Origin: Owenia fusiformis
Taxonomy: Eukaryota > Annelida > Polychaeta > Sabellida > Oweniidae
Length of the DNA: 64,000 nt
Direction: 5' to 3'
Assembly (NCBI GenBank): GCA_903813345.2
Contig: CAIIXF020000009.1
Location: forward strand, 14,520,347-14,584,346
A program made the translations under genes and the position numbers. The notes beneath the pieces were generated by a model that saw nothing but the letters and a program-made list of their open reading frames with translations, searched no databases and was not told the origin of the DNA. Shown here one piece after another: positions 7,901-63,200 of this stretch; within the stretch, counting starts at the first letter, position 1; each line of letters starts with the position of its first letter.

Positions 7901-10900
7901 TTCTCTTACTGGACATATTTAAATTTGTATAACTATCACATACATAAGGGTAATATGAAAAGTGAACCACTAAAACTGATACCCTGCCATGTTATTTCCC
8001 CCGAATCAGCCACCTGGTGGCAAACTGGTAACTACCTACTCGCATCTGAGTAATTTGAAGAAGGTGTGGCAGGTGTGACATAGACAAAAGTGTTCAACTC
8101 ATACTCTTACAAGAATACATCGTATACTCCTCCAAATTGCCACCACTTCTTTGCACATAAAGATGCGCTAATCTCTCCATGTCATGCATGGTTCAGCCCT
8201 GAGTCAAATGTTGGTTAAAGCGGAGACAAGCAGCCCATTGGCAATTCTTTCTCCAAATTTTGCAATATCTGGTGGAGGAATGGTGAGCATAGATGCTCTC
8301 GAGATAGCTCCAAATTAAGAGGTCACAACAATTCAAGTCAGGAGCACTTCCAATGGCACTTAGCCCTTGCACTGATTTTTGCAATATCTGAAACTTGGTT
8401 GATCCAGAGACGATTTTGACACACTGTGCAAATGGAAGGATTTCTCACCCAACCATGACCACATGTGAATGAATGACATATCATTGCAAAGAGGAGGGAT
8501 GTGGCTTCATGGTAAATTAAATGAAATTGATGTAGTCATTACAAGTTTTGTGATTTTACGAGATAACTGCTTGTTGCATTTTTTTTATATGCCCTATAAA
8601 GTGTTCTTTATTAAAACAATATGTTTTCTTTCAAGTGAAGTCCTCATGATAGTAAAATATCAATCAAATCTCAAAACCCAGTACCCTCTTGTTTCATAAT
8701 AGCTCTAGTATAGTGATCACTTGATTTGGCTATCTAGAATTGTCCAAGAATTATTCTAGTCAAACTTCAAAACTATGTTACATTGTGGGTCTTATGTTCT
8801 GTTCAAAGATGAGTTTCATAAGGTAAAATTATGTATTTATTATTACTTAACTTAGATTCACTCTTTCCATGTTTCACAATTTTTGATTAGAATTGCTACA
8901 CCCTGGTTTATAAAGTTGTTTGTGTACAGGTATTTATTTTATTTTATTACAGAATGTACGTTTATAATCCTATCCAAAGAGGACTACAATGTGATACATG
9001 ACGAGGCTTCAATTGAAGAAGGTAACATTGTTGAACCTCTGAAATGCTAAATCTGGAGTTAAAATTGAGACAGCAGAATGTGAAATTTGAATGATTGGTT
9101 AAACTAGGTTTTGTGAATGTGACATGTAAAAGATGTGCAATTGATGGTATACGTCTATACGAGACTCAAATACATAAGGTCTAACCCTGGGGGTCTAATC
9201 TTATATTTTGCATTCCTTTTCCTTACATCATTATGAAAATATTGGATGTGGTGGTGTTAAAATCCAAATACAGTGAACATGAGTTCCCAAACATTTATAA
9301 CATGTGTTTCACTATCATGCCTTCAACCGTTTCTCAAGCTTTCCATACATTTCAATGCTATATTGAAGCCTTCAGGGAAGTCATGTTCCACTTTTACCTA
9401 AAAAAGATATTTGAAGCTCTATACTAGGTATATCAAGTATATTAAAATGAAGATTATACACTCAAGCCTTTGTGTCATATTACACTAAATAAGAAGCAGC
9501 CACATTACAGTGTACATGTATCATAATATTTCAGAGGCAATGGCTGGAGATGTCAATATGTTCTTCAATGACCCATAATAAGAAGCAGCCACATCACACT
9601 TTACCTGTATACTAATATTTCAGAGGCAATTGCTGGAGATGTCAGTATGTTCTTCAATGACCCATAATATGAAGCAGCCACATCACAATATACATGTATC
9701 ATAATATTTCAGACGCAATGGCTGAAGATGTCAATATGTTCTTCAATGACCCATAATAGGAAGCAGCCACATCACAATGTACCTGTATCATAATATTTCA
9801 GAGGCAATGGCTGGAGATGTCAGTATGTTCTTCAATGACCCATAATAAGAAGCAGCCACATCACAATGTACCTGTATCATAATATTTCAGAGGCAATGGC
9901 TGGAGATGTCAATATGTTCTTCAATGACCCATTATAAGAAGCAGCCACATTACAGTGTACATGTACCATAATATTTCAGAGGCAATGGCTGGAGATGTCA
10001 ATATGTTCTTCAATGACCCATAATAGGAAGCAACCACATCACACTGTACCTGTATCATAATATTTCAGAGGCAATGGCTGGAGATGTCAATATGTTCTTC
10101 AATGACCCATAATAGGAAGCAGCCACATTACAGTGTACCTGTATCCTAATATTTCAGAGGCAATGGCTGGAGATGTCAATATGTTCTTTAATGACCCATA
10201 ATAAGAAGCAGCCACATTACAGTGTACATGTATCATAATATTTCAGAGGCAATGGCTGGAGATGTCAATATGTTCTTCAATGACCCATAATAGAAAGCAG
10301 CCACATCACAGTGTACCTGTATCATAATATTTCAGAGGCAATGGCTGGAGATGTCAATATGTTCTTTAATGACCCATAATAAGAAGCAGCCACATTACAG
10401 TGTACATGTATCATAATATTTCAGAGGCAATGGCTGGAGATGTCAATATGTTCTTCAATGACCCATAATAAGAAGCAGCCACATCACACTTTACCTGTAT
10501 CATAATATTTCAGAGGCAATGGCTGGAGATGTCAATATGTTCTTCAATGACCCATAATAGAAAGCAATCACATCACACTGTACCTGTATCATAATATTTC
10601 AGAGGCAATGGCTGGAGATGTCAATATGGTCTTCAATGACCCATAATAAGAAGCAGCCACATCACAGTGTACCTGTATCATAATATTTCAGAGGCAATGG
10701 CTGGAGATGTCAATATGTTCTTCAATGACCCATAATAAGAAGCAGCCACATCACACTTTACCTGTATCATAATATTTCAGAGGCAATGGCTGGAGATGTC
10801 AATATGTTCTTCAATGACCCATAATAAGAAGCAGCCACATCACACTTTACCTGTATCATAATATTTCAGAGGCAATGGCTGGAGATGTCAATATGGTCTT

Positions 10901-13900
10901 CAATGACCCATAATAAGAAGCAGCCACATCACACTTTACCTGTATCATAATATTTCAGAGGCAATGGCTGGAGATGTCAATATGTTCTTCAATGACCCAT
11001 AATAGAAAGCAACCACATCACACTGTACCTGTATCATAATATTTCAGAGGCAATGGCTGGAGATGTCAATATGTTCTTCAATGACCCATAATAGAAAGCA
11101 ATCACATCACACTGTACCTGTATCATAATATTTCAGAGGCAATGGCTGGAGATGTCAATATGTTCTTCAATGACCCATAATAAGAAGCAGCCACATTACA
11201 GTGTACCTGTATCATAATATTTCAGAGGCAATGGCTGGAGATGTCAACATGTTCTTCAATGACCCATAATAAGAATCAGCCACATTACAGTGTACCTGTA
11301 TCATAATATTTCAGAGGCAATGGCTGGAGATGTCAATATGTTCTTCAATGACCCATAATAAGAAGCAGCCACATTACAGTGTACCTGTATCATAATATTT
11401 CAGAGGCAATGGCTGGAGATGTCAATATGTTCTTCAACTAGATAATGGCAACTCCGCGGAGTAGCAAATCCCAACGAACAAATTACCGAATTCCAATCAA
11501 TTATACTCATTACTTTGGTTAAAATTGAAAAACTTAGATTTTAGAATTGCGAATTCCTGCAAAGCAGCCATTTTGAATTTTTCTGAGGTACAAATCTGAA
11601 AAATAATACCATAATTGTGATCTACTCCAAAATTCCTTCAATTTGAGCATTATATAGCCATACGTTGAAGGGATCAAAAAATTATTGCGAAATCGTACAT
11701 TAGACGGCCATTTTGAATTTTACGAGGCTGGAATCAGAATAAGATACAATATTTGCAATCTACTCTTAATTGCATTTCATTTGAGTATAATAAAGCTATA
11801 CTTCAGAAAGATCTAAAAATTAGCGAAGATTTCTGTTTTCCTGACCCCCCACACACGGTCCCTGGGGGTCAGGATGAAAAACACTGAATATATGTGAAAT
11901 AGATAGATGTTGCGAATATACTACCAAAATTTCAAACAATAATATTAATTACTTTGGTTTAGAATGAAAAATTTATGATTTTTGCGAAAGAGTCCCGTCA
12001 TTTTTAAAGCAGTGGCCATCTTGCAAAAATCCATTTTGAATTTTCTGAGGTACAAATCTGAAAAATATTACCATAATTGTGATCTACTCCAAAATTCCTT
12101 TAATTTGAGTATTATATAGCCATACTTTGAAGGGATCGAAAATTATTGCGAAATTGTACATTAGACGGCCATTTTGAATTTTACGAGGCTCGAATCAGAA
12201 AAAAGATACAATATTTGCAATCTACTCTTAATTGCCTTTCATTTGAGTATAATAAAGCTATACTTCAGAAAGATCTAAAAATTAGCGAAAATTTCTGTTT
12301 CTCTGACCCCCCATACACGGCCCCTGGGGGTCAGGATAAAAACACGGAATATATGTGAAATAGATAGATGTTGCGAATATACTACCAAAATTTCAAACAA
12401 TAATATTAATTACTTTGGTTTAGAATGAAAAATTTATGATTTTTGCGAAAAAGTCCCGTCATTTTTAAAGCGGCGGCCATCTTGAAAAAAAATTTTTTTG
12501 CGTAAAACTATTCATCAATATACATCTTTCCACCAAATATGAAGAAAATCCGTCAACTAATATTTGAGTTATCTTCCGGACGGACAGACGGACGGACTGA
12601 CGGACGGACGGACGGAGGGCTTCACTATATCCCTACCGAACTTCGTTCGTTGGGTTGGGATAATGACCCATAATAGAAAGCAGCCACATCACAGTGTACC
12701 TGTATCATAATATTTCAGAGGCAATGGCTGGAGATGTCAATATGTTCTTTAATGACCCATAATAAGAAGCAGCCACATTACAGTGTACATGTATCATAAT
12801 ATTTCAGAGGCAATGGCTGGAGATGTCAATATGTTCTTCAATGACCCATAATAAGAAGCAGCCACATCACACTTTACCTGTATCATAATATTTCAGAGGC
12901 AATGGCTGGAGATGTCAATATGTTCTTCAATGACCCATAATAGAAAGCAATCACATCACACTGTACCTGTATCATAATATTTCAGAGGCAATGGCTGGAG
13001 ATGTCAATATGTTCTTCAATGACCCATAATAGAAAGCAATCACATCACACTGTACCTGTATCATAATATTTCAGAGGCAATGGCTGGAGATGTCAATATG
13101 TTCTTCAATGACCCATAATAAGAAGCAGCCACATTACAGTGTACCTGTATCATAATATTTCAGAGGCAATGGCTGGAGATGTCAATATGTTCTTCAATGA
13201 CCCATAATAAGAATCAGCCACATTACAGTGTACCTGTATCATAATATTTCAGAGGCAATGGCTGGAGATGTCAATATGGTCTTCAATGACCCATAATAAC
13301 AAGCAGCCACATCACAATGTACATGTATCATAATATTTCAGAGGCAATGGCTGGAGATGTCAATATGTTCTTCAATGACCCATAATAAGAATCAGCCACA
13401 TTACAGTGTACCTGTATCATAATATTTCAGAGGCAATGGCTGGAGATGTCAGTATGTTCTTCAATGACCCATAATAAGAATCAGCCACATTACAGTGTAC
13501 CTGTATCATAATATTTCAGAGGCAATGGCTGGAGATGTCAGTATGTTCTTCAATGACCCATAATAAGAATCAGCCACATTACAGTGTACCTGTATCATAA
13601 TATTTCAGAGGCAATGGCTGGAGATGTCAATATCTTCTTCAATGACCCAGATGAAAAATCCTCTGCAGAGCTAGAAATCATGATAGCAGGTAAGATTGTC
13701 ACAAACCGCATCATGCAACACTCATTTTCTATAACCTGCTGAACATTCAAGAAAATCCATGTTTGTCTACAATATTGAAACCCTAACTTTATGCTACTTT
13801 AATTACATTATAACAATAAATTGAAATTCTCCTTTTCTTTTCTCCAGAAAAGAGATACAGAAAAAAAGGTTTAGGGAAGGAGGCTTTGTTGGCAATGATG

Positions 13901-16900
13901 AAATATGGTATGTATATTAATTTGCTTCTTCAAATCTCACAAAATCCAAATGATTTAATGATTTTCGCTAGATTTAACAATTCAGAGAATGCTCATGTAA
14001 GATCTTATTTAAATATTTCTGAAAATGAAGTAGGATGATAGAGAAGCTGTAAAGACTGTCCATTCATCTGTCCAGTCAATCTTCTAATGAGTAATTAAAA
14101 TTTAATGACTATCTTGAATCAGCATATAAAATTTGAACCAAATCTGTCTTGCTTTTATTAGCTTATATGGCCAATAATTAAGGCAACTGCCAAGTCGTCA
14201 AATGACTGTGATTGGGATTTGAAGATATGATTTATCACATACATGTAAACTTTGACGTCAGTCACATATATACCCCAGCGAGCAACTTTAAACAAACAAA
14301 TAATCTTAACGTCACAAATCACTGTACATATCAATTTATGACGTCATTAACTTGTTACCTAACCAGAACAAAACAACCATTTAGTTTGTTCATTGTTGTT
14401 CTCCGTGATCTTTTCACAAAAAGTGGCAGATCAGTTTTCTTCATAGCATATGGCCCACGCTATGATGTGGCCTTCCTATTTTTGTAATAAGGTCAAAATA
14501 TTTCCCATGATGCAGTTTGCGGAGGAACAAATTTATACTACCTTGTTTTCCCTCACAGGTTTAACGTGGGGATTTTCACACCTATTTTTCAAATGATATA
14601 TTCGTTCATATTCCCGTACAAGAGCACAGAAAATATTATTAGAAACGATTGATCTCTTATTAATCTTAATATAACAGCTATTTTTTTTTTCATTGTATTG
14701 GTTCATAGCATGGTGAAAACTATGATTGAAAAGTGACAAAATATTCCAGAAGAGAAGGTCACGTGATCAGTTGACTATAGTCGCCATATTGGAAAAAACA
14801 ATTCCATTCGACTTTCAATACTTTCATGCCAATCTTACCGCACTACAAACTGCAACATCGATGCAACAACTGAATAAAAGTATTCAGTCATTGTTTTATT
14901 TTATTTAGCATGCGGGTGTAAAAACAAAATTGTGTAATTAGTTTGATTTAGAACTTTTGGGTCACGCAAATGGCTTCGGGAAATGCATAGTGGGAAAATA
15001 TTGACCAATCAAATTTTGTCCTTGCTTTTTGACTGCTTTTTCAGTACATATTTGCGAACGCTCTGATTCAAGAGCGAATTGTGAAAGGGAGAATTTTGAA
15101 ATTTAGTTTTTGAAATTTCTATATACTGTATTTATTGATGATATTGATGAAATCTTAACCATGCATCTGAGCTGTTAACACTCAGAGGCATGGCAAAGAA
15201 CTGAAGTAATTTTAGACACACATGCATTATAGCCACCAAAGCAATGACGTAAGCAAACAGCATGTACATACATGGATATACAAATGCTAGAACATGCAAC
15301 AACATGTTTTTTGTGAAAAATGGCATTTTGAATATAAGGGCCATCTTGAAGATTTCTCATTGAACAGAGATCCTCTGCCTTTAAGGCATCAGTCTGAGTT
15401 TTGTGGGATGATCAATGTCAAAATCTCTCCAGTTCATATTAAAAATTTTATTCAATCATTTTAGTCTATTTTTACACGATCAGCATTCAGAGTTAAACAT
15501 TGGTACCATTTACTACAGGGTGGGTCAATAAAACATCCATATTTTTATTTTTGTAATATCTTTGCTGGTATGTTGGAAATATCCATAAATTATATATCAT
15601 TTGAAAGATAATTCAATTTCCAACAAAATGATGTATGATGCATAATATATGAATGGCTATTGGTGACTCCATGGTCAATTCTGTATCATGGGGAAGTAAC
15701 AGTCAAAAACAACATTTCGCTAAATGTTTTGAGCTTAATACATAATATTGTATTGCTTAATCAGTTAATCAACACTTTTAGGCTTTTAAATATGAAGAAA
15801 AGGTGTTGGAGTTGAGTTTTTTATTGTTTGTAAATCATTGCATAACTCTAGAATAATCATGGAACCTATTTTTATGCATTGTAGTTTGTTATAAAGTAAG
15901 ATTGTTAGATAAATTGATATTTGCTTCAATCATGTTTTGCAAAGAAACTCAGTTGAAATTTTGCCATAACCCATTATATGGAATACATTTCCATAATTTC
16001 CTCTTCTGGTGTCTATTATTGCATTTTCTGCCATTCAGAATGCCAGTTAAATTAAGTTATACAAGTACAACATCACTATTGATCATTTCATGATAATTTT
16101 AGCCTATAATAGGCATTATCTCCAAAATGTCTTGAAATGAGTAAATATTAACTATTTGATGCAGATTTCTCCACCTTATTTAGGCTATAATATTACAAAT
16201 ACCTATCAAAATGGTAAAAGAACTCGATAATATTGTATTTGTAAATTAATTTGCTTTCATCTAATACATAAATCAACAATTTTGACCTTCTATAATTAGA
16301 CTTATATGCCCAAAGCTGACATAGGGGTTATATCTGTCTGGTCAGCTTTAAGCATTCCATATTCAGCAATTTGTAAATCATGATTTTGACCCCTGTGGTA
16401 ATCAAAACGTTATTTTAAAACAAAAAATTATATATCGTTTTGTTAGAAATTGAATTGTCTTTCCAATGATACATGATTTAAACATTTGTCTGTAATATTA
16501 AAAATGTTGTAGCAAAACAAAAACATGGACGTTTTTCTGCTGGCCCACCCTGTAGATACAGTAGATAGTGATATTTTGTCATGTTAATGCTGTTAATGTG
16601 AAGTAACCTAAATAATGTAGGCATTTTCATGAAATGATTAAAAACCATTGTACCTTAAATGAGAAAATAGAAAAAACGAATATTGTAAAACTATAACACG
16701 TTTTCAAAGGGTCATGAGGGTTGGATACACACATGAAATCTCTTTGGATTCTTCTTAAACGCTATTCTCACGTGAATATAATAGGAAATGTTGGTTAGCC
16801 TGATGACGGATAAGTAAGAGTGATTTTTAGGTAAAAATTAGAAATTGGTATAAAAATACTGAGTAGAACTGGATATATTGCTATTTCATTAATGTATGTA

Positions 16901-22089: not shown

Positions 22090-22544
22090 TAAACTTTCTA
22101 TCACATCCCTATTCCCTACACTCATTTTATGAGACAGAGTTGTGTAACATTAGGTTTACATTTTAATAGATATCTGAGGATGGTGATGTGCAAATAGGTG
22201 CTAATTTATAATAAGGATGAGCATTTATAACATAATGTAAAACTGTGTTATGTTATACTATTAAACATAAAAATGTCAATAAGTTTTTGATAATTTCAGC
22301 TTTCTTTGGAATCAGGCTGGTTTAAATGATTCCTTTGGATGTGGCTCCTAGTCTACAGTAGATCACATTCAACTGATATTCTGCTGTGATGATTTTCAAC
22401 TCTGTGACATGCACGATGTGTCTTCAATGTTATGCATTTCTAACAATTTTATGTCACATGGTACATCATTCTCCAATAGGTCTCAATTTTATATCTTCAT
22501 ACTGGATCTCTTCTTCACCATGTTGGCTGCACCTGGAGAGGAAT

Positions 22545-23352
22545 GAGGGAGTGATGGAGTGATTAAGAATAATTTGGAGAGAAATTGGGGAATGATGCAG
22601 TGATTAAGAATAATTTGGAGAGGAATGAGGGAGTGATGGAGTGATTAAGAATAATTTGGAGAGGAATGGAGGAATGATGAAGTGATTAAGAATAATTTGG
22701 AGAGAAATGGAGTGATTAAGAATGATTTGGAGAGGAATGATGGAGTGATGGAGTGATTAAGAATAATTTGTAGAGGAATGGGGGGAATGATGGAGTGATT
22801 AAGAATAATTTGGAGAGGAATGGGGGAATGATGAAGTGATTAAGAATAATTTGGAGAGAAATGGAGTGATTAAGAATGATTTGGAGAGGAATGATGGAGT
22901 GATTAAGAATAATTTGTAGAGGAATGGGGGGAATGATGGAGTGATTAAGAATAATTTGTAGAGGAATGGGGGGAATGATGGAGTGATTAAGAATAATTTG
23001 GAGAGGAATGGGGGAATGATGGAGTGATTAAGAATAATTTGGAGAGGAATGGGGGAGTGATGGAGTGATTAAGAATAATTTGTAGAGAAATGGGAGAATA
23101 ATGGAGTGATTAAGAATAATTTGTAGATGAATGAGGGAGTGATGGTGTGATTAAGAATAATTTGGAGAGAAATGGGGGAGTGATAGGGTGATTAAGAATA
23201 ATTTGGAGAGAAATGGGGGAATGATGGAGTGATTAAGAATAATTTGGAGAGAAATGGAGTGATTAAGAATGATTTGGAGAGGAATGATGGAGTGATTAAG
23301 AATAATTTGGAGAGGAATCAGGGAATAATGGAGTGATTAAGAATAATTTGGA
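22545..23352 (+). repeat. Minisatellite, about 20 copies of a roughly 41-bp unit
   Basis: The core GAGTGATTAAGAATAATTTG recurs with variable linkers rich in GGGGAATGATG, giving unit lengths from about 24 to 45 bp. It is intergenic and touches no exon that I recognise, unlike the three splice-site arrays elsewhere in the window. Confidence 0.9.
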
Positions 23353-24221
23353 GAGGACAGAGAAATTAACAAAGAATAATCTGGAGAGTAATAACAAGAA
23401 CAATGAAATCATTCATGAAAAGGGCTATTAAAGGACTGAGTGTACAAAGTAGGTATTTACTTATGGTGCATATGAGTTACATGTAATTACTCTAAATATA
23501 TGCCCTATAAAAATCAAGGTGTTAAAAATCCCATCAAACATCTTATAAGTGTCAGACAAGTCTGCTAAAAAGCATTTCTCAAAATGGCACCCATACTAGA
23601 TGATTTTCCAGAAGCTCAAAGGATATCTTTGGAGGGATATCTCAAAATGAATGCCATATAATCCAAATTGTCAAAGGAAAGTGTGAAATGGTTTCAACTA
23701 CTTGAAATTGCAGCCATTTTTCAAAATGGACACTTAAACTTAAAGACCGTTCTCCAGAAAGCAATATACTGACATATATTATTTTTTACATTTTCATACA
23801 ACTGACAAGATTATAAATGCTTTAATATTAAGTTAACATGGTTATAATTGTTTTTTTCTACAAAATATCAAAGCAGAACCATATAGTAAAAATAAAAAAT
23901 TTGGCTGGGTTTCGAACCACACCACAGTCATCTGCCTGCGAGTTGAGGTCAGTGCCCCAGACCATAGCTACATCTTATATTTAACAAGTAAATTTAACAC
24001 GCTATATTTATCATTTACTTGGTCACCTGACATTCTAATTTTAGAAAAATTAGTTGTCCGGCGTACTTTTGAGCAAGGGAACAATCTGCATGACACATTT
24101 ATCGTCAGTATTTGAATACATATAAATATTATACATGTATATATATTTGCCCCATTTGTTAATCAATGTATATTCTCTCATTATAGCTCGAAATATCACT
24201 AGGTACCTAGAACGGTTTCTA

Positions 24222-25236
24222 GACAACTCATCCCAAGACAAGTCATCCCAAGACAACTCATCCCTAAGACAACTCATCCCAAGACAAGTCATCCCCAAGA
24301 CAACTCATCCCAAGACATCTCATTCCAAGACAACTCATCCCAAGACATCTCATCCCAAGACATCTCATCCCAAGACAACTCATCCCACTTGTATAATTGA
24401 TAAATTATTTTGTCCTCTATATTATATATATATCCCTTTTTCATTTTTATGATTACAAAGTGAATTTTGATTACACACTCAATTTTTAATACTGATTTTT
24501 AGCATTTTGAAATGGCACTTGAAAGTTATGTTTTACTTGTAAGTACTGCCGCTATTTTGATGAATTCTGGGTTATTCTAAATATATTTGAGAATATAGGA
24601 TTGAACATAAAAGTCATAGACATTATTTCCAAATTTAATCATCATAAATCTGAAAGTTTGATCTTATTTAGGATTAAGCCAAAATATTTTAAAACAAAGA
24701 CTGAATTAATCTGAGAGAATTATTCTGATAGCACCTTGGATAATACATTCTAACTGAGTTAATCCTACACCTTTGATGATCTTTGATTTAATATCAAAGT
24801 ATATATTAAATTTGAACATGTTTATCTTTATCCCAATCAGTCAACAAAAATTAACTAAAACTAGGCCAACTAACTACAAAATACAAAAATATAAAGTAAA
24901 TACAGCATGACAAAATATGAAATGTGTCAGTTTAAAATACAGCATGAAAAATGTATTAATAAAAAACAAAGATATTCCATGACCAGTGTGCTAACTGCTA
25001 AAATCTCTAAATATTTTTCATTCTTTCAAAATGAAAATTAATTGTATAAAATTATGTTTTATTTCAAGTTGGGAAGAGTTGTCTTGGGGATGAGTTGTCT
25101 TGGGATGAGATGTCTTGGGATGAGATGTCTTGGGATGAGATGTCTTGGGATGAGATGTCTTGGGATGAGTTGTCTTGGGATGAGATGTCTTAGGGATGAC
25201 TTGTCTTGGGATGACTTGTCTTAGGGATGAGTTGTC
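24222..25236. mobile_element. Foldback-like element: two inverted 15-bp tandem arrays
   Basis: The left array (24222-24390) repeats CATCCCAAGACAACT about 11 times. The right array (about 25070-25236) is the same repeat in inverted orientation (AGTTGTCTTGGGATG). Both begin at their outer edge with a variant of GACAACTCATCCC. About 680 bp of AT-rich, non-coding spacer lies between. Tandem repeats forming inverted arms are characteristic of Foldback-type elements, but I see no target duplication or transposase. Confidence 0.65.
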
Positions 25237-27578: not shown

Positions 27579-30500
27579 TCATTTATAACGAAACCTACTG
27601 CTGCTATCTTGAGGGGTCAGCGGTTTTTCTATCACAAATTTGAGGATCTCCATCCACTGGCTTTGCTCATCTTCATATTCTGCACTAAGTACAAAGTTCC
27701 TTTCGGGTGTCTTGATGGTGAAGGGGTAGCCCTGAGTCTTAAACCCAGGGGGAACTCCTTCTCTAACTGCGTTGCCTTTATTCTTATATCCAAGAAACAC
27801 CTCCCCCTTGGGAAATGGATCCTGAAATGAGTCCAATAAATCAGGCTTATAAATCAGTAAATGAGAAAAATCAAAATGGAAACCATTTAAAGTATGAGTG
27901 AGAATAGCTCATCGCTGACTGGTTGGAATCTATGTGCAACTAATTTCCCTTCTATGGATAGTTAGATTCAAAACAGTTGAGATTGGTTCAATTTAGTGAA
28001 TAGACAATAATTCGCTAAGTATTAACATGAAAACAGTCCAAAATTTGACGAGCTAAGATTTCTAAAACAACAAATGAAGAACTGTTCGTTTTAATGGGAT
28101 GAGTTACATGAACTTACCAGTGGATCTGGATAGTACATAAGTTTTCTATTGTCTAGCGTAAACCACCTTTTCTTAAATGCATCTCCTTTATTGGGTCCAG
28201 TCTTGTACAGCCAGCCCTCTTTGAGAAAGTCCCGGGTTAAATTACTTATTAACTGAAAGAATTGTACATCAAACTCAATACAAAAATGAAGAGCAATTAC
28301 AATCATATAATAATAATAATAAATTAGTAATGCAATAGTAAATTTTAAATAGGATCAATTTTATGAGAACACATTATTACCAAGGAAGTTGAACTCCAAT
28401 CATTTTTGGCACAACTTTTTGATGATGACATTATGTTATCTCACATACTGGTCACATGGGCCGATTGGTATGTGGTAGAGGTAAGAAGTTTTAGGCCCTG
28501 TACTTATATATACAGATCAAAACCCTGGTATAACAGATTTTGAACATTCCATCTATTTAGCCTTAAGGGTGTTCTGCTTCTGCATTAATGGATACAATAT
28601 TATATGCAATATTGTGAAAATCATGAATATCTCCTTTTGAAATGTATCTATATACTTTTCTTGCTTTATAGACAGATGGCTTTACACATAAACCTCTACC
28701 CATATATTACACTCTATGCAGACTGTGCTATAGCAAAACAAGCAGTGTCACCATGGACAGAGGTAACAAGTTCCAGCCAAGCATATCTATTCAAATGAGG
28801 CTGCAACAAAATGGCGACTTCGAGGAGGTTTGAAATGGGGGTAAGTTTATCTAAAAGCTATATACACCAGTCTGTGTCTGCAATGTGCAGCTTCTTGTAA
28901 TTTAGTCAATTGGGGAAATATATTCTGTGTGCACAAGGTTAGTCAATTGCTGAAAGGAGTGGTATTGATATGGAGAACTGATTTCAACAATGTTTTTCTC
29001 TTAAACCAATCATTGAAAACATTCTGTAAAAAAACATGGTATTTTATGTAATGTTGACTGATTGACAACAATTTAATGCGGAAATTATTTAGAAATATTT
29101 TATATAAATTAATATTGGATGGAGGGGGGAGTGGATAATCCCCTAATCCGCTGTAGCAAAGCACACATTGTGGTGAGCAGAAGCACCGTAATTCCAATAT
29201 ATAAGAATTAGGTAACATATAAATCATGTATGTTGTTGACAATATTATAATTGAAATAATGGAAACTGATTGAAAGTGCATAGTAAAATATATGTTCACC
29301 TTTTGATCATGTGCAAGTTTATCAAATTCACCTACTACTCCCTAAAATCAACAGTTGCACGATTCTGAACGAGATTTTTAAAAAGAAAAATTGGAAATCA
29401 TTAGCATTAGTTGGATAAAGGATCATGAAATGTATAGTGAGATGCGGCTGACTTGATAATCTGGTGATAAAATGGAAAAAGTGATGATAGACGGAATGAA
29501 CTGTTACAAAGGAGGGATCAGAGATGATAGGTGTGACAGCCTCATGGCGTCATGGTCTAAGGAATCAAATAGATATTAAGTGTGACAGCTTTAAATTTCA
29601 AGGAATCAGAGAAATGTTAAGTGTGGCAGCCTTACATTTCAAGGAATCAGAGAAATGTTAAGTGTGGCAGCCTTACAGTTCAAAGAATCAGAGAAATGTT
29701 AAGTGTGGCAGCCTTACATTTCAAGGAATCAGAGAAATGTTAAGTGTGGCAGCCTTACATTTCAAGGAATCAGAGAAATGTTAAGTGTGGCAGCCTTACA
29801 GTTCAAAGAATCAGAGAAATGTTAAGTGTGGCAGCCTTACATTTCAAGGAATCAGAGAAATGTTAAGTGTGGCAGCCTTACAGTTCAAAGAATCAGAGAA
29901 ATGTTAAATGTGGCAGCCTTACAGTTCAAAGAATCAGAGAAATGTTAAGTGTGGCAGCCTTACATTTCAAGGAATCAGAGAAATGTTAAGTGTGGCAGCC
30001 TTACAGTTCAAAGAATCAGAGAAATGTTAAGTGTGGCAGCCTTACATTTCAAGGAATCAGAGAATGTTAAGTGTGGCAGCCTTACAGTTCAAAGAATCAG
30101 AGAAATGTTAAGTGTGGCAGCCTTACAGTTCAAAGAATCAGAGAAATGTTAAGTGTGGCAGCCTTACAGTTGAAAAGAATCAGAGAAATGTTAAGTGTGG
30201 CAGCCTTACATTTCAAGGAATCAGAGAAATGTTAAGTGTGACAGCTTTACAGTTCAAAGAATCAGAGAAATGTTAAGTGTGGCAGCCTTACAGTTCAAAG
30301 AATCAGAGAAATGTTAAGTGTGGCAGCCTTACAGTTGAAAAGAATCAGAGAAATGTTAAGTGTGACAGCCTTACAGTTCAAAGAATCAAATAGACATTAA
30401 GTGTGACAGCTTTACAGTTCAAAGAATCAGAGAAATGTTAAGTGTGGCAGCCTTACAGTTCAAAGAATTACAGACCAGTCACATTACTCAACAACATTCC

Positions 30501-33500
30501 AAAAATATTTGAAAAAATACTTTATGAACATTTGTACACTTTTATTAAAGAAAATAATTTACTTTATATCAATCAATCTGGCTTTTTACCAGGACACAAT
30601 ACACAAAATCAACTGGTAAGCATTGTTCATTTTATTAATTCAAATATTGATGATTTGGCGGACACCAGAGGTATCTTCCTCGACATAGAAGGTGCTTTTG
30701 ACGCCGTTCCTCACTTCCTGTTGATCAAAAAATTAAAATCATACGGTTTACCTCAGAGTATTATTGATCTCTTTCAAAGTTATCTTACCAATAGAAAATT
30801 AAACTGCCGTGTCAATAATATATCTTCCAAATTCTCAGAGGAAGGCCTAATCAATAGTGGGGTACCCCAGGGATCTATCTGGGGGCCATTATTCTTCCTT
30901 TTGTACATAAATGATCTACCTGAAGTCATTAGAAATGGTAAAATGTTCTTATATGCTGACGACAGTTCTATATTTTTTAAAGTTGATAAGGACAGAGATC
31001 TAACTGAAGCTCAGCGGGAAATACAATTTGATCTTGATAAGTTGTCTGAATGGTCCGATTTGTGGAAGTTGAAATTCAAAGCATCTAAAAGTAAAGAATT
31101 GATATTTAGGAGTAGATGTCGTTTCAAGAGGCAGTTTGAGCCAGTTACCATGAATGGTGTAACTATAGCAAGACAAGATTCACATTGCCACCTGGGTGTA
31201 ATTTTAGATGATGCTCTGACTTTCACCGAACACATAACCCAACTCCGTATCAAAATAGACAAGATGATAAATCCACTTAATTGTTTAAAATATAAGATTG
31301 CTAGTAAACACCTTGAAACTATGTATATGTCCTTTATTTTACCCCATTTAGAATACGGCTCAGTTTTATTTGATGCGGCTCCAAAACACGAACTCTTGAA
31401 ATTGGACAGGCTTCACTATAAGGCAGCCTTAATTGTTAGCGGCTGTATCAAGGGAACAAGTTCTGAAAGTCCTAAACTGGGCTCCACTATCGGAAAAAAG
31501 AAAACAAAAGAAACTGTTATTAATGCATGATGTTTATTATGAAAATGCCCCTCCATACATTTCAAATATTTTCAATTTGTACCGAAACAAGAGGCCAACT
31601 CGAGCCCTAAGAAAAACACCCCATTTTATTGTACCCGCGAAACAATCTGAAAAAACTAGACGCGGTACTGTAGTTTCTTCTATATCTGAATGGGAGAGGG
31701 ACACATTACCTGATCAACTCAAAACCATTCCAATAAAGCGCACTTTTAAATACCATCTTAAAAAACATTTATTTCCGAAGAAGACCCTAATTGACACAGT
31801 CCACTTGAATTTAGACAGGCAAGCTGAAATAGTGCTTAATAAAACCAGATGTGATTTCATTTTTCGTTACCATAAGTTCCAGCATCAATTCAATAATGTC
31901 AATCCTCAATGCCTGTGCGGTTTTCGATCTCAGACAACCCAACACCTATTCTTTTCTTGCCCCCTTTTACTTGATCTCAGGGAACAACTAGCACTCGACC
32001 TTGCAGGGATACCCAATTTCAACATTAACCATTATAACAAACTAAATGCAAAAGAGAAACTAGATACATTGTTATATGGTGGCTCAACATATAAAATTGA
32101 AACTAACAAGCTTATAGTCACAACAACTGCCAACTTTATTTCTTTAATTGTAGACTATGTTTAACTTTATATATTTGGTGTAAAATGTCACATGTAACTT
32201 ACATGTATTGTCATGTTGAGTGTTCAGCAGCCTAAAATTACTTGATTTTTATGTGCCTACTTAACTCTATTTTAGAAATTGTATAAATGTGTATTTGTGA
32301 AAATCGACATGGGCCACTAATGCCAATGGCCTTGGCCCATTGTCGGACATTGTGAAATGATAGTATTGATAAATAAAACATAACCTATAAAAAAAAAAAA
32401 AAAAAAAAGAATCAGAGAAATGTTAAGTGTGACAGCCTTACAGTTCAAAGAATCAAATAGATATTAAGTGTGACAGCTTTACAGTTCAAAGAATCAGAGA
32501 AATGTTAAGTGTGGCAGCCTTACAGTTCAAAGAATCAGAGAAATGTTAAGTGTGACAGCTTTACAGTTCAAAGAATCAAATAGATATTAAGTGTGACAGC
32601 TTTACAGTTCAAAGAATCAGATAGATATTAAGTGTGACAGCTTTACAGTTCAAGTTATCAGAGATATGTTAAGTGGGACAGCCTTAAGGTTCAAGGAATC
32701 AGCAATGTTAAGTGTGACATACCTCTTCATCATCAGTCCCAGGAAAAGCAACTCTGAGTATATTCAGTTTGGCAGATCTGATTGCATTGTACCAGTCAAC
32801 TATATCCTGCAATACAATACCAACTAACTACATACAATACAACATAATATCACATTACAATACATACAATAACAACTAACTACATACAATACAATACAAA
32901 CTTACAATACATACAATACAAGTGGTCTGAGTGGTCCGCAACTCGTACAAAAGGCTGTGGTGTGTACTTGTATGTCTATGTATAAGTGCACATAAAAGAA
33001 CACATCGCTCCTTCAAGGAGGGGTTTCTGGGTCTATCTTCCATGTTAATTACGTAAATTACGACCGTATATATACGGGACATACCCAAGAGGTATTGCTC
33101 ACCTTCATTGGTGGTAAACAAAATACAACAAAAAACATCAACTAATTTCTATAGCAATTTTGCTTGGATGAGTGCTGTTTGTTTTTGTTTAACATTCATA
33201 GTAGGGAAGGATATAGAGAAAGGGACAGAAGTAGGTCATATATCAATTTATCAACATGCATCATATTCACCTAATTCCATCATGGGGCCACTGCGATCTA
33301 GTCATGAATACATCCTTGTTGTCAAATAAAATAAATTCTTTGTGTCATCATCTAAATCTCACTATTCCCCATAATTTCAAGTCTTCAGCATTTATATTAA
33401 CTATGCACTTAATATAGAACTAATATCTAATAAAATACATGTATATACAGGGTGTCCAATAAAAAAGGTGAAAGATATTCATGTAACTTTCTTAATATTG

Positions 33501-36500
33501 CACCAATCTTGATGAGTTTGTAACCCAAACCATTTTACCTTTATGCTGTGAATTGTGGTTGCTATAGCAACCGAAACAACAAAAAGGCGGGGCAAGTTTG
33601 TTTACGTCACAACTTTCCAAAACATGTTTATTCTTTCTGATAGCTTTCTTCATACTCCCAGGTCTATTGCTACCACAAATACAATATAAGCAGTCCTAAA
33701 GTCCCATTGTTATGAAAATAAGCTATTTGACATAATGTCCATCTCTAGCTATACACTTCTTATGCCTATTCACCCACTCTCTAAACACACTTTCAAACCC
33801 ACTCTTGCCCATTTCCTGAAGTCTTGCTAAGACATGTGATCTGAGTTCACACACAGCTCTATGCTCACTAGTGAAACTTTTAGGGCACTGGGACTACCCC
33901 TACTTGCACACCCTCCATATTCCCCAGACCTTGCACCCAATTACTTTTACTTATATGCAGAACTCAAGCGTGACTTGAGAGGAAATCAATTTGGAAGCAC
34001 TGATGAACACATGTCTTAGCAAAACTTCAGGAAATGACTGAATTGCAATGAACTGAGCGTAATAAGGCAAATATGAAAATCCAGATTAATTTCAAATTAT
34101 CTACACATATTATCATACACACCTTTCCCTCTTCTGTGTACAGGAAGAGATTTCTCGTAGAGCCCTCATTATCATAAGTTATTTGGAGTCCGTTTAAGTT
34201 GCCAATTTTGTCTGGTACAAATGTCACATTTATTTGGTCAATCTTTAAAGTTGCCTTTGGGGTTTTGGCCTGAAACAGTTTTAAATTACTAGATAAATTT
34301 AGTGTAATTTTGATACATAGAATTCCAAAACAATTTGTACACATACATGTTATATACTTTACAGACACAATCCACAAACTTCTTTCACAATACTCTGATC
34401 TCACAATCAGTAAACATATTGTTTAAGTATGTTACATGTATTCTGGAAGTTTGCCTCAATAATAGAACATATATTCAGCTTTAAAGGATTTTACTATAAA
34501 ATAGTCATTTACACCTTAAGGAATAAATCTTATTAAATAATGAACGAATGAATAAATATTAAAACATATGATATACATGTTCCCATGGTACACAAAAATT
34601 ATGATATAGCAATTATCAAAAACCTTAATGCAAGAGAATAGAAGAATGAATATGCTTACATCTTCTTTGTTATATCAAAACATATGATATACCCATTACA
34701 TGGTACACATAAATTATGATATTGCATTTATCAAAAAACCTCAATGCAAGAGAATAGAAGAATGAATATGCTTACATCTTCTTTATTATAATACTTTAAG
34801 GTGTTCTCTGTTTCTGAGAGGACGAATCTGCGACTTTGAAACTTATTGTTGTCTTTTCCTCTTTTCCACATATAACCTTCTTTTCTTCCACTTAGGTAGG
34901 TTTGTTTTTCTGGGTTGGTAAACTCCAACCTTTCATATTTGGCACGGATCCATTGCTCCTTAAGCACTCTGGAAGAAAAGATAATGCTGAAATTGCTGAT
35001 ACTTTCTTTTATTTCTTTTTGCTACTTAAACATGCTATTTTGACATTAGGCAGCTTATAATTAATTTGGTGGATTAGTGTTGAATTCAATTTCTATATTT
35101 TTAGAACCACACCATGCTTTGTATGAGTTTTAAAAAGCAAAAAAACAAAGCTTCTATTTAAAAAAGACATGATTTCCTAAATTGTTTCACCTCATTCTGA
35201 TGTATCTAATGGCTGAGAAGGACTCTGATTTATTATAAGACAAAACATGTTCCTAGCCAGTGCATCTTGTGGAATAAATCACTGTATATTCCTCCCTTTG
35301 CAAACTATATTTTATTAAATTCATTCCAAAATTATTTCTTGTTGATTCTTGTTTTATATTGAACATTGTAATAACTAGAGTAATATTTACAAATTTTCCC
35401 TTTTCTTATTGTTTTCCAATTTAAATTTCTGTACCAAAATTATTATCCAAATTACCACTGCTGGATTATTTTATGCTAATAGTGTGAATTCCTCTCTTCA
35501 GTATACGACATTTATAGGCCATAACACGAAGCAACCAAGAAGTTATGAAATTCACCAGATAACATCCTGGTTGCTAAGTGAAGAATTCTCACTCAATTTT
35601 TGGAGCTGCTGGATATATTTGCTTGTGACTGCCTAGATTTTCAGTAACTGGATGTTACTATTTACATAGGGTTAAAATATTTAGATACAAATCGACCTCC
35701 TTCTGAAAATGATGAAAATAAAAATTTCCCCTGACGGAAGTTCATCCATTTTGCTATAAAGATGTAACGTCTTTATAACCAGGTGGGGGCCAGTATACTT
35801 GGTGTGTACATCTTAGGCTTCAAGGAAACATTTTCTAGTCTTTCCCCCACAGCCTGTGTGTTCCAAGGGATATTACAGGCTGTGGATCCCAAACTGGATT
35901 CACATCACAAACTTAAATGTTTTAGGAAGTACATGTACATTTTTAAATTGCCAAAATTGCCAAATTTTACAGTATACAGAATAACCTGATGGTAGTGTAA
36001 GGTACTTACTGTACATCTGTTGAACAGGGACGCCTATATGAGGGGGGTACTTGCTGTTCATACTTTTCCTGGCACTTAATATTACCTTCTGATTCCATTA
36101 ACTGTAAATAAAGTATTAACTGTAAATGGTGTATTAGCTGAAGATACTGTACAATAACTGTAAACTGTATTAAGGTAGTACTTCATAGTGTCTCAGCTTT
36201 TTTCTGCAATTCAGATTTTCTTCCAAAAAAATCTTGGTAAAAGATACACTGATATATAACAAAATATGTCAAAATTAGAAAGATTGACAGTTTAGTTATT
36301 TCTAAAAAAATGTTTTAATTTAACATTGGATCTCAATGGGAAATTCTTTTTTATCCTGGAACTTGAGAAAAAAATAATTGATTTAATTAAAATAATTAAT
36401 AATTATGTTATTCCATTATATCGGGTGTCCTAAAAAAAGGAGACACTTTTTGCCAAGTATTTTCTCGGCAAGTGATCAACCAAAGTACAAAGATTTGTAC

Positions 36501-53275: not shown

Positions 53276-53342
53276 GTCGTCTTCGAAAATTGAATTTTGT
53301 TTGATAAAATTTTACACCAGATAAATTTCAAAGATGGCTGCC

Positions 53343-56137: not shown

Positions 56138-56270
56138 CAGTGAAGCCTGTCTAAGTGGAACACCTTTGGTACATCTAAAAAGTGTTCCACTCTTAGAGGT
56201 TCATTTAACAAATTAACATAAGTCAGTTGGTCTTCCACTAACAGGTGTTCCACTTCGAGAGGTTTCACTG
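56138..56270. mobile_element. Short pogo-like MITE
   Basis: The left end CAGTGAAGCCTGTCTAAGTG and the right end CACTTCGAGAGGTTTCACTG are inverted repeats of the CAGTGAAACCTC type known from pogo/Tigger-related elements. The full length is 133 bp. TA is present at the left flank but not the right. Confidence 0.75.
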
Positions 56271-57207
56271 TTTCTACTGTTCTTAAAATGAAAGGAAATT
56301 CTTATGACTCATATATATATAAGTGTTGCTGTATGTGGATAACATTGAAATCCTTAAAGTAAATACAACTCTCCCATTCATAGCTTACAATAGGCTTTGC
56401 ATTTGGTAACCACTAGCGATAAGACAACAATTATATTGATTTACTTTTTCAGGCTTGCACTTAATAGAAATACTGTCTGAATTATATATTGCAGTTTTTT
56501 AAACATACACAGACAATAATACTACATTCTAAATAGAGTGATCTTTGGTAGGACATGTAATCACAAATGATTGAATTAGTTAATCCTATATTTGTGTGAT
56601 TAATATTAATATAGCCCTGCTTAAACCCCCATAAATGATATTGATCAATTCAAAAATAAAGTTTTACAGTATTATATTAACAGTATATGAAGTGTGCCAG
56701 TATATTGATTGATAAAGACCTATACAATAGTTTCAAGATGTTTTGTGTGACATTATAGAGTGTAAGTACTACATTCAGTAAGGAGTTGAATTATAGTAGA
56801 TTTTTGATGAGTATAAAGGAAATATTTCTGTTTATATTATAACACAGGTGTTATGGTATTACATGTATTTATTGAATTGCAAAATCCTGATCAAATGCAA
56901 TATTTCAGTAGACATATATGGGATTAAAAGATTCCTCTAGGATAACATTATTACTCTAGTATGACATTTTAAGTTGAAGTCCATACTAATGGAAATCTAT
57001 AGTAACTAATAGAACAAAGACAGTGTACATCTTATATTGCTCTAGTTAAAATCAGAAACTATTACTTTCAGAATTGTGATGAACAGAATGTCAAAATTGC
57101 AACATAAGGTTGGATATCTACAAAACTATAAAAATGGATATTAGAAATATCAGTTCATGGTGGAATAGTAAAGTAACCCAAACTGGCAGCATCTGAGGTG
57201 GCTTACA

Positions 57208-60200
57208 ATGGGGGTTGGTGCCAGTGTGCCACAACAGCCTAGCTCAACACCTGACCCAGATACCTACTATAAACAACAGTATTGGCAGCAACAACAACAT
57301 CACCAGCATCATGAACCAGTGAAGTTTAACCATGATGTGTATAATCAAAGACCATGGCACTTCCACCAGCAAGCACATGAAGGCAATAGATATGACCCAT
57401 ACAATGGCTATGAGTCGCAGTTGAGTAAGTCCCTCAGGCAATAGATATGACCCATACAATAGCTATGAGTCACAGTTGAGTAAGTCCCTCAGGCAATAGA
57501 TATGACCCATACAATGGCTATGAGTCACAGTTGAGTAAGTCCCTCAGGCAATAGATATGACCCATACAATGGCTATGAGTCGCAGTTGAGTAAGTCTCTC
57601 AGGCAATAGATATGACCCATACAATGGCTATGAGTCACAGTTGAGTAAGTCCCTCAGGCAATAGATATGACCCATACAATGGCTATGAGTCACAGTTGAG
57701 TAAGTATCTCAGGCAATAGATATGACCTATACAATGGCTATGAGTCACAGTTGAGTAAGTCTCTCAGGCAATAGATTTGACCCATACAATTGCTATGAGT
57801 CGCAGTTGAGTAAGTCCCTCAGGCAATAGATATGACCCATACAATGGCTATGAGTCACAGTTGAGTAAGTCTCTCAGGCAATAGATTTGACCCATACAAT
57901 TGCTATGAGTCGCAGTTGAGTAAGTCCCTCAGGCAATAGATATGACCCATACCATTGCTATGAGTCACAGTTGAGTAAGTCCCTCAGGCAATAGATATGA
58001 CCCATACAATTGCTATGAGTCGCAGTTGAGTAAGTCCCTCAGGCAATAGATATGACCCATACAATTGCTATGAGTCACAGTTGAGTAAGTCTCTCAGGCA
58101 ATAGATTTGACCCATACAATTGCTATGAGTCGCAGTTGAGTAAGTCCCTCAGGCAATAGATATGACCCATACAATGGCTATGAGTCACAGTTGAGTAAGT
58201 CTCTCAGGCAATAGATTTGACCCATACAATTGCTATGAGTCGCAGTTGAGTAAGTCCCTCAGGCAATAGATATGACCCATACAATTGCTATGAGTCGCAG
58301 TTGAGTAAGTCTCTCAGGCAATAGATATGACCCATACAATGGCTATGAGTCACAGTTGAGTAAGTATCTCAGGCAATAGATATGACCTATACAATGGCTA
58401 TGAGTCACAGTTGAGTAAGTCTCTCAGGCAATAGATTTGACCCATACAATTGCTATGAGTCGCAGTTGATCATGAGTAAGTCCCTCAGGCAATAGATATG
58501 ACCCATACAATGGCTATGAGTCACAGTTGAGTAAGTCTCTCAGGCAATAGATTTGACCCATACAATTGCTATGAGTCGCAGTTGAGTAAGTCCCTCAGGC
58601 AATAGATATGACCCATACCATTGCTATGAGTCACAGTTGAGTAAGTCCCTCAGGCAATAGATATGACCCATACAATGGTTATGAGTCACAGTTGAGTAAG
58701 TCTCTCAGGCAATAGATATGACCCATACAATGGCTATGAGTCGCAGTTGAGTAAGTCTCTCAGGCAATAGATATGACCCATACAATTGCTATGAGTCGCA
58801 GTTGAGTAAGTCTCTCAGGCAATAGATATGACCCATACAATGGCTATGAGTCACAGTTGAGTAAGTCTCTCAGGCAATAGATATGACCCATACAATGGCT
58901 ATGAGTCACAGTTGAGTAAGTCTCTCAGGCAATAGATGTGACCCATACAATTGCTATGAGTCGCAGTTGAGTAAGTCTCTCAGGCAATAGATATGACCCA
59001 TACAATGGCTATGAGTCACAGTTGAGTAAGTCTCTCAGGCAATAGATGTGACCCATACAATGGCTATGAGTCACAGTTGAGAAAGTCTCTCAGGCAATAG
59101 ATTTGACCCATACAATTGCTATGAGTGGCAGTTGAGTAAGTCCCTCAGGCAATAGATATGACCCATACAATTGCTATGAGTCACAGTTGAGTAAGTCTCT
59201 CCGGCAATAGATTTGACCCATACAATTGCTATGAGTCGCAGTTGAGTAAGTCCCTCAGGCAATAGATATGACCCATACAATGGCTATGAGTCACAGTTGA
59301 GTAAGTCTCTCAGGCAATAGATTTGACCCATACAATTGCTATGAGTCGCAGTTGAGTAAGTATCTCAGGCAATAGATATGACCAATACAATGGCTATGAG
59401 TCACAGTTGAGTAAGTCTCTCAGGCAATAGATATGACCCATACAATGGCTATGAGTCACAGTTGAGTAAGTGTCTCAGGCAATAGATATGACCCATACAG
59501 TTGCTATGAGTCAAAGTTGAGTAAGTCTCTCAGGCAATAGATATGACCCATACAATGGCTATGAGTCACAGTTGAGTAAGTCCCTCAGGCAATAGATTTG
59601 ACCCATACAATTGCTATGAGTCGCAGTTGAGTAAGTCCCTCAGGCAATAGATATGACCCATACAATGGCTATGAGTCACAGTTGAGTAAGTCTCTCAGGC
59701 AATAGATGTGACCCATACAATTGCTATGAGTCACAGTTGAGTAAGTCCCTCAGGCAATAGATATGACCCATACAATGGCTATGAGTCACAGTTGAGTAAG
59801 TCTCTCAGGCAATAGATATGACCCATACAATGGCTATGAGTCACAGTTGAGTAAGTCCCTCAGGCAATAGATTTGACCCATACAATTGCTATGAGTCGCA
59901 GTTGAGTAAGTCCCTCAGGCAATAGATATGACCCATACAATGGCTATGAGTCAAAGTTGAGTAACTCTCTCAGGCAATAGATGTGACCCATACAATTGCT
60001 ATGAGTCACAGTTGAGTAAGTCCCTCAGGCAATAGATATGACCCATACAATGGCTATGAGTCACAGTTGAGTAAGTCTCTCAGGCAATAGATATGACCCA
60101 TACAATGGCTATGAGTCACAGTTGAGTAAGTCTCTCAGGCAATAGATATGACCCATACAATGGCTATGAGTCACAGTTGAGTAAGTCTCTCAGGCAATAG

Positions 60201-63200
60201 ATTTGACCCATACAATTGCTATGAGTCGCAGTTGAGTAAGTCCCTCAGGCAATAGATATGACCCATACAATTGCTATGAGTCACAGTTGAGTAAGTCCCT
60301 CAGGCAATAGATATGACCCATACAATGGCTATGAGTCACAGTTGAGTAAGTCTCTCAGGCAATAGATTTGACCCATACAATTGCTATGAGTCACAATTGA
60401 GTAAGTCTCTCAGTTGATTACAAATCTCTTGTGTTAATTTTTAGAAAAATATTTTAGTGCTACAGATGTAAGTGTAGATGTTTTAAAATGAAAACATGTA
60501 CATTGTACCATTATGATAAAACTGCTTTAGATACCAGCCAGCTTTTATACTAACATCAGTTATATGATGCAAAATATGATGTGACCCAATCTTTGGATAT
60601 GTAGGTTTGAGTTATACTTTAATAAAAATAGAAATAAATCGTGTCCAGAGCACAAAGCTGCATTACACCTTTTCTGGCTCTGTAAATGAGGGTTGGACTA
60701 TGAGACAGCTACTGCTTCATTCTTGTCCTGTATTTTTATTTTTAGGTCTGCAGCAACAACAGTGGAAGGCCACCCAAGAGCAGCAGCAGAAGCTCCAGGC
60801 ACAATGGGATGAGTATAACATTAAGCAAAAGGAGTACCAACAGAAACTCATAGAATATGAGAAAGAAAAACATGTATATGAGCAAGAGTTGAGAGAACAG
60901 GAAAGAAAAGAACAGGAGAGAATAGAACAAGAAAAAAAAGAACAGGCAAGAATAGAGCAAGATAAAAAAGAACAAGAGCAAATAGAGCAAGAGAGAAAAG
61001 AACGTGCTAGGGAAGCTGATGAAAATAAAGGACAATCAAATGACCAAAGGGACATCATAAAACAATGGGAAGTCTTCTTTCTTGCATTAGAGGATGACCA
61101 GAAAGCCCAATGGGAAAAATACTTTAAGCAGTTAGAGCAGATTCAAGAAGATGGTTCTCGTGAACTTGATGCTCAACAACGGGGCCAGTTAGCTGCATAC
61201 CAGAGACTAAATAATCCAAAACCATTACTAAGACAACCAACTCAGAAGCAATATCAGTACACTGTAGATACAAAATACCATTGTGAGTATGACACTCAAT
61301 ACATAGTGTTTAACTTTCCCATAGCCAGCTTTTGCCAAGGGGGAGCTTTCTTCCATGGGGGGGGGGAGATTTTTGACAGTTTTGGCTAAAAAAGTCATCC
61401 GAAAAGCTCCCCCCTGGCTATGAATATTTTTCTTTCAAACCTACAATGCATATTATATGTAATTGACACCATGGCATAATGACAAAACATTTGATAAGGT
61501 AACACATAACAGTTTTGTTCATGCTTTCCTGAATGATGTCTCTCAATGATATAGAAGACCAGAAATAACTACTATTTTTTTTCTTTGTTTTCCTTTGCAG
61601 TATTTGAGTCAACATACAACTTCAGTGTGACACCACGTTGGAAGATCTCATCAACACGCCCTCGTGTCAGTCAGGGTAATGTATGGACTGATCCTAACTT
61701 CACATTTGACACAGCAATACCTGGTGAAAGATATGCAGAAACAAAAACTAAACTGGGTTATTTTAGACCACAGGTAAAATAATTCAATGTCATTGCACAT
61801 GTTAATAATGGCTTCAATGCAATCAATTATATGCATTCTAATGGGCTTTGTATAAAAAACCTCCTACCTCGTAACCTCGTACCCACATATTTGGGACATG
61901 ATAAATCTTAGTTTATGATGAATTATAGATGAATTAGTGCACCCATATGCCTTTATTTATGGATCTGTCATCTGTCTAGTCATAAAATAAAAACGGAATT
62001 GCTGAAATGTTAATAATTTATTTTTCCATACCACTGGAAAAATCCTAATTTGATCAGTGCACTATGAATAAAATGAACATAATTCCAAGGGTTTCTAGCT
62101 CCTCTTTGTAACAGCTTCTCCATTTGTGATAAGAGAAATGCGTTAAGAAAGTGAGGCTTATGTTGTTTTATATACAAAAAGTGAAATGATATGATTTGTC
62201 TACTTGCAAATACTGCCACTTAATTCATACATGTATTTTGATTTCCATATGTAGGAGGTTAAAAAGTATGGAGAGGTGCCTCTTTGTCTCTTCCACAACA
62301 GCACATCAAAGTTTGACATTGGCCAGGGTGGTGTTGGCACATGTTGGTTCCTTGCTACCATTGCTGCTTTAGCTGAGAAACCAGAAGCCATGAGAAATGT
62401 AAGTACAGAGTGTCCAGAGAGAATGAACAATTTATATACATGGTCCAGAGACAATGGTAAGTGTAAGGACATGCAACCCTTGAAGAAATGTCAGAATGAA
62501 TGGATGAAAAATGTAAGTATTGGGTGTCCAGAGACGAGAATTCAAGTACAGGGTGTCCAAAGAGGATATCTATCAACTATTTACATCCTGCCTGTGAACA
62601 CAAGACAACTACAATATAGCAAGATAGCTAGTTTTCATTAAGTCTTAAAGGTCTGAACATGGTAGCTGATTCATCAACAATTTTCAAATGTTGTATGACA
62701 TATATTTGGCCCCACGTGACTTTTCACTGGGGCCAACTGACCAGAGTTCCAGCTGACTAAATCATGACATCCAAGATGTTTTCTATTTGTTTACATTGCA
62801 ATCATGTCATTGCTATGACCTCGTGATTACCAAGAAATCAGTAAACCAGCAGAACTAGACTTAGTGTGACGGCAGTGATCACATGGGTGATCAATCTGAA
62901 AGATCCATTGATTTAAAGAAAATCACACTTTTATAGCTGCAGTTTGAGAAGACTTATGTCATATATGCTTTAAGCATACATTTACGTTCAGGTAACAATG
63001 AAAATGTAAGTACTGATTATTATTTGTGAGATGTTGTATCAGATGAAATGTGCATCCCTGGATTCATTTTTGCTGAAAAATTTTGAAAAAACTCTGTTGA
63101 ATTTTAGTAGAGCCTTATTGCCTGCCATACCTAGCTTATTGGAATTTTGAAATGAAACTTCAAACTGCCTTTATGGGTATAGAACCTCCTCTCAACTCAA

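Follow-up and report, generated by a model that had tools for sequence, protein, structure and literature searches.

The 64-kb window analysed here is one stretch of the genome of the annelid Owenia fusiformis, picked for its tandem arrays at splice junctions. These arrays lie in the introns of three genes, namely NAT9, ADAP and a calpain gene. At the acceptor of NAT9 exon 4, the donor of ADAP exon 4 and the predicted donor of calpain exon 1, the repeated unit spans the exon–intron boundary, and further copies of the splice site, here called decoys, lie within the adjoining intron.

The NAT9 protein assembled from the window is 99% identical over its whole length to the Owenia fusiformis protein P0001, and ADAP of the window matches the Owenia fusiformis protein P0121. 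Exact spliced mapping places P0001 on seven NAT9 exons and P0121 on eight ADAP exons. The calpain model is our own prediction, in which exon 1 is supported by an open frame that joins exon 2 in frame. The Peptidase_C2 domain comprises residues 281-428 of this model, and alignments with solved calpains begin no earlier than residue ~277; homology backs no more than the protease domain downstream of exon 1. No Owenia calpain protein was retrieved from 3264 candidates at a cut-off of 1e-60.

Arrays spanning a splice junction

The NAT9 array consists of an 89-bp unit that spans the exon 4 acceptor. Tandem Repeats Finder (TRF) and a unit scan gave 33 full copies, arranged in two blocks (Table 1). 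Each unit is composed of 47 nt of the intron end and 41 nt from the start of exon 4, with a single base at the joint, and the acceptor AG is intact in 33/33 units. At column 73 of the unit, the last copy carries C, encoding Ile as in P0001, and the other 32 of the 33 carry G, encoding Met.

In calpain, the 55-bp unit combines 44 nt of the exon end with 11 nt of intron, including the GTAAGT donor, and one unit has a 6-bp insertion. The first copy serves as the predicted exon 1 donor (57424/57425). The exact GTAAGT motif is kept in 53 of the 55 units.

The third spanning case is the duplication at the donor of ADAP exon 4, which the sequence-only reading missed and which is a better ADAP case than the 41-bp array named there. 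The 15 copied nucleotides of exon 4 encode YNKED, in which K165 is identical in 6/6 aligned homologues and the remaining residues are similar.

Further repeats were seen elsewhere in the calpain gene. Exon 2 contains a coding 15/30-bp repeat (60894-61003) of a charged, EQERKEQ-type sequence. The exon 4 donor (62398) has a possible decayed copy at 62504-62534 with a score of 23. This candidate for a second, diverged donor copy lies within chance expectation and was not counted, because 3-5% of random points outside arrays score as high, so that 1-2 such cases are expected among 42 junctions. The calpain intron at the window edge (63799-64000) contains 20-bp and 95-bp repeats with GAGGCAAT, which match the NAT9 unit weakly (9/400 shuffles as good, uncorrected).

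Arrays adjoining a splice junction

The sequence-only reading described three arrays whose terminal unit is the junction itself. This holds for the 89-bp array of NAT9 and, at a predicted junction, for the 55-bp array of calpain. The 41-bp array of ADAP starts 3 bp inside the intron: its match to the exon 6 donor begins no earlier than intron position +4, and no exon sequence is repeated. It was therefore rejected as a copied junction, as it adjoins the donor without containing it. At the other end of the same exon, an A/T-rich 52-bp repeat behaves alike. Both repeats begin 3 bp off a junction, and in neither does the unit span the exon–intron boundary.

Table 1. Positions in the window of the arrays, the inserted elements and the exons next to them.
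Feature	Position	Strand	Description and basis
NAT9 array, block 1	9488..11437	+	22 units of 89 bp, including acceptor AG; TRF, unit scan
Repetitive element inside NAT9 array	11438..12661	.	internal repeats 461-462 bp apart, CGGA run
NAT9 array, block 2	12662..13649	+	11 full units; the final one holds the authentic acceptor and exon 4 start
NAT9 exon 4, authentic, terminal copy	13609..13689	+	exact mapping of P0001
ADAP 41-bp array, distal block	29562..30468	-	TRF, alignment
Non-LTR (long terminal repeat)-type retrotransposon fragment in 41-bp array	30469..32405	+	RVT_1 reverse transcriptase and poly-A end; flanked by array copies
ADAP 41-bp array, proximal block	32406..32719	-	begins 3 bp into the intron after exon 6
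ADAP exon 6	32723..32806	-	exact mapping of P0121
52-bp x 2.2 repeat, A/T-rich	32810..32921	-	3 bp from ADAP exon 6 acceptor; TRF coordinates against mapped exon
ADAP exon 4 donor duplication	34556..34790	-	116 bp x 2: 15 nt of exon, GTAAGC donor and intron; TRF, alignment
ADAP exon 4	34776..34968	-	exact mapping of P0121
Calpain exon 1 (predicted)	57208..57424	+	open frame that continues in frame into exon 2; the first array unit forms its 3' end and donor
Calpain array	57381..60413	+	55 units of 55 bp; TRF, unit scan

Consequences of decoy splice-site use

Translation shows what the use of a decoy would do to the protein. Splicing to any of the 32 NAT9 decoy acceptors leads to a stop at codon 98-101 (32/32), compared with codon 205 by the authentic path. 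All 52 calpain decoy GTAAGT donors lead to a stop at codon 79, and the single decoy of ADAP exon 4 to a stop at codon 182. The exon-side copy keeps the frame and the tested decoys bring an early stop, which explains why that copy stays functional and agrees with the earlier suggestion that selection may preserve it.

A calpain unit can also be considered as an exon in its own right. The duplication joint supplies an AG and the unit end a GTAAG, enclosing 42 nt that are in frame. Among the 54 decoy units, 50 start with AG and carry TTGA/GTAAG, and 50/50 of those remain open and in frame when added singly. On this basis, the units might act as alternative 42-nt cassette exons, whose inclusion would add 14 in-frame residues such as SNRYDPYNGYESQL. 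However, the copying of a coding frame partly accounts for the open frame, and one length in three is a multiple of three by chance. Only a very short pyrimidine tract is present, and the usual intron length demands skipping of a unit. Cassette use of the calpain units is considered very improbable.

Founding duplications

The homologies at the founding joints are short. In calpain, AG is present on both unit flanks (2 bp, read from the flanks), in ADAP exon 4 the homology is TAT (3 bp), and in NAT9 it is 0-1 bp, apart from a single base that was added or altered. As read from the sequence, such homologies of 0-3 bp fit ordinary short tandem duplication, with no long prior repeat needed. The alternative raised in the sequence-only reading, repair that copies spliced or paused transcription sites, gains no support here.

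The order of events could also be reversed, with ordinary minisatellites present in the introns first and a splice site evolving within them afterwards. This would likewise yield arrays that end at a junction, and the ADAP 41-bp and 52-bp repeats, which merely abut theirs, could be such cases. In NAT9 and ADAP exon 4, the two cases covered by the comparison of exon age, the repeated exon parts are, however, coding sequence recognisable in other animals; therefore the exons were there first and were then copied into the intron. The copied NAT9 segment includes G90, D91, V92 and N93, which are identical in 6/6 aligned animal homologues, hand-picked from 120 listed. This is in keeping with the expansion from exon into intron that had been proposed earlier, and an origin of the arrays before the splice sites appears highly unlikely.

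The sequence-only reading had also stated that the units are unrelated and that no single transposon is spreading, and both statements stand. In ten pairwise comparisons among five units, with the 116-bp and 52-bp ADAP units left out, at least 9/400 shuffles reached the observed score, without correction. Since the units are unrelated in sequence, the spread of one transposon family was rejected. Hairpin-driven expansion was rejected as well, as three of the units fold no better than shuffles: none of their six strands showed unusual single-strand folding (z -0.77 to 0.87). Two arrays were later interrupted by insertions. The NAT9 array holds a repetitive element, which we take to be Helentron-like, and the ADAP 41-bp array an element with a reverse transcriptase.

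Junction overlap and chance

Overlap with junctions was compared with chance by founder and by length. The founder test comprises seven intronic arrays with a period of at least 20 and a TRF score of at least 100, with split arrays merged; arrays that lie within inserts or coding exons, or beyond the three gene spans, are excluded. Its null is the uniform placement of units. With array classes and distance tolerance set post hoc, and for one window and a small n, three of the seven arrays span a junction (0.59 expected, P 0.0145), and five span a junction or come within 6 bp of one (0.71 expected, P 1.5e-4). With two weaker arrays added or with a fourth gene, the eight variants that ask for spanning or contact gave P 0.014-0.029, and those that count touching at a tolerance of 3-20 bp gave 1.2e-4 to 1.4e-3. 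The fourth gene lies on the minus strand at ~1.5-4.6 kb and presumably is an NME5 gene. When calpain is removed, its junction being predicted, 2/6 arrays span a junction (0.52 expected, P 0.087) and 4/6 span or touch one (0.63 expected, P 0.0013). By founder there is perhaps an excess at junctions; with both tests post hoc, it is modest for spanning and more marked for touching.

By length, there is no junction excess. A strong copy (score at least 40) is found within 3 kb of 3 of the 35 junctions of the three genes, and a score of at least 20 is reached at 6 of the 35. None of the seven junctions of the presumed NME5 gene scores above 17. Among 800 random intronic points, 27% have a score of at least 40 and 31% a score of at least 20. 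These values are high because the arrays are long; among 800 points that avoid the large arrays and the inserts, the corresponding values are 0.75% and 6%.

These counts bear on the idea that tandem duplications arise more often at junctions, as mutational hot spots, than elsewhere, for instance through breaks or R-loops where co-transcriptional splicing pauses. The spanning and touching arrays of the founder test are what such hot spots would leave. The test is post hoc, though, from one window with few arrays, and spanning falls to P 0.087 without calpain. The share of random intronic points that reach a score of 40 and the ordinary founder homologies also speak against special junctions, and a hot-spot origin is regarded as unlikely.

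Proposed origin of the arrays

The three spanning arrays are likely minisatellites of the type called mirages in amphioxus, in which a short tandem duplication over a junction is amplified into the intron and tolerated since the terminal copy is spliced. In the first step, a short tandem duplication with breakpoints flanking a splice junction would have arisen at 0-3 bp of homology. The unit would then have been amplified into the intron by unequal exchange or slippage, as suggested by the near-identical units, by unit types that recur in blocks when judged by eye, and by copies flanking a later insertion. The exon-side terminal copy would be used in splicing, as indicated by the exact match of the annotated proteins for NAT9 and ADAP exon 4 and predicted for calpain. 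The array would then be removed as intron. Selection would finally keep the terminal copy functional, in line with the stops obtained by translation from decoys. The decoy copies look largely unconstrained, and the arrays require no dedicated function.

The freedom of the decoys was assessed from the variation among units. Counting distinct variants, with the authentic copies included and one indel-bearing calpain unit dropped, NAT9 has 15 exon-derived and 17 intron-derived variants (15/32 exonic) over 42 and 47 columns (p 1.0). The calpain array has 14 exon-derived and 5 intron-derived variants (14/19 exonic) over 44 and 11 columns (p 0.56). Strong coding constraint on the decoy copies is thus not seen by distinct variants, though a count by frequency leans the opposite way.

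Three observations weigh against this neutral account. The mean minor frequency is lower in exon-derived than in intron-derived columns, both in NAT9 (0.016 vs 0.054) and in calpain (0.031 vs 0.060). This is read as a few old variants common to many intron-side units, although constraint could also produce it. Secondly, 12 invariant columns form a run over the NAT9 acceptor (P 0.04 at that place). As a run of such length occurs anywhere with P 0.24, it is not built upon. Lastly, the 3/7 spanning arrays (P ~0.015) hint at more junction-spanning arrays than plain neutral placement predicts. In a bolder reading, Owenia junctions would be preferred birth sites of minisatellites, and the arrays would be banks of ready splice sites and, in calpain, of in-frame cassette exons. 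This seems quite unlikely; if true, it would represent an evolving route to new exons outside lancelets.

Other repeats in the window

A G-rich minisatellite with 21 copies of a 41-bp unit is located between NAT9 and ADAP (22534-23357), not at any mapped junction. In a shuffle comparison its unit was unrelated to the ADAP 41-bp unit. Two 15-bp arrays (AGACAACTCATCCCA), at 24221-24387 and 25069-25236, are inverted and ~700 bp apart, like the tandem-repeat ends of a foldback element.

Comparison with known systems

Tandem repeats at exon–intron boundaries are found in other genomes. Passages of PMC2812944 describe human variable internal tandem repeats at such boundaries, which resemble the Owenia arrays as minisatellite units able to alter splicing. 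Unlike the arrays described here, the human repeats lie in segmental-duplication genes, have 30-bp units present four times on average, and fall half in coding sequence, according to the same passages. Intron gain by tandem duplication is described in parts of PMC4974935 for the potato RdRp, where other cases are recounted. In both settings, a duplicated sequence bearing splice sites is raw material for new intron–exon structure. In Owenia, by contrast, the copies sit within one existing intron, and the annotated or predicted models contain no new intron (compared with those parts of PMC4974935).

The closest counterpart is known from amphioxus. The sequence-only reading knew of no described class of this kind, and this claim falls, as such a class is described under the name mirages in passages of PMC3087553 and PMC3902484. 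The former report minisatellite-like tandem duplications of exon–intron boundaries in amphioxus globins and cite Adh3 as the origin of the name. Either intron end can be duplicated, reverse-transcription PCR (RT-PCR) suggests regular splicing, and BflGb6 occurs in two haplotypes with 6 and 3 units (PMC3087553, same passages). Lancelet PGBD5 and troponin C also carry mirages, as stated in part of PMC3902484. Within the open-licence literature searched, the term in this sense is applied to lancelets only, and passages of the Owenia genome paper (PMC9977687) that touch on repeats or introns mention no such arrays.

As far as these passages describe them, the mirages of Adh3, BflGb6/BflGb9, PGBD5 and troponin C share with the Owenia arrays the tandem boundary copies, the occurrence at either intron end and the authentic section at the cluster edge. 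Many copies retain AG or GT in both, and unit length varies by gene. The unit crosses the exon–intron boundary in NAT9, in ADAP exon 4 and, at a predicted junction, in calpain. An authentic junction at the cluster edge and a coding path that avoids the copies were found by exact mapping for NAT9 and ADAP exon 4, and by frame only for calpain. Owenia differs in being an annelid rather than a cephalochordate, in having 33 and 55 copies compared with the 6 and 3 given for the BflGb6 haplotypes, and in the later inserted element within the spanning NAT9 array. The RT-PCR and polymorphism data belong to amphioxus only, whereas the Owenia cases are known from sequence and annotated proteins.

The class itself is thus already known, and the additions are the annelid cases, their high copy number and a calpain unit that might function as an in-frame cassette exon of 42 nt. 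In amphioxus, mirages were suggested to give rise to new introns, and tandem junction copies could be raw material for new exons as well as introns. The natural arrays, with 53 exact GTAAGT donors and 33 acceptors, offer a ready test of spliceosome choice among near-equal sites. The chromosome-scale Owenia genome makes a genome-wide array count and a test of the decoy sites by RNA sequencing feasible. Three junction-spanning arrays in 64 kb of an annelid genome suggest that the process is wider than the lancelets in which mirages were described.

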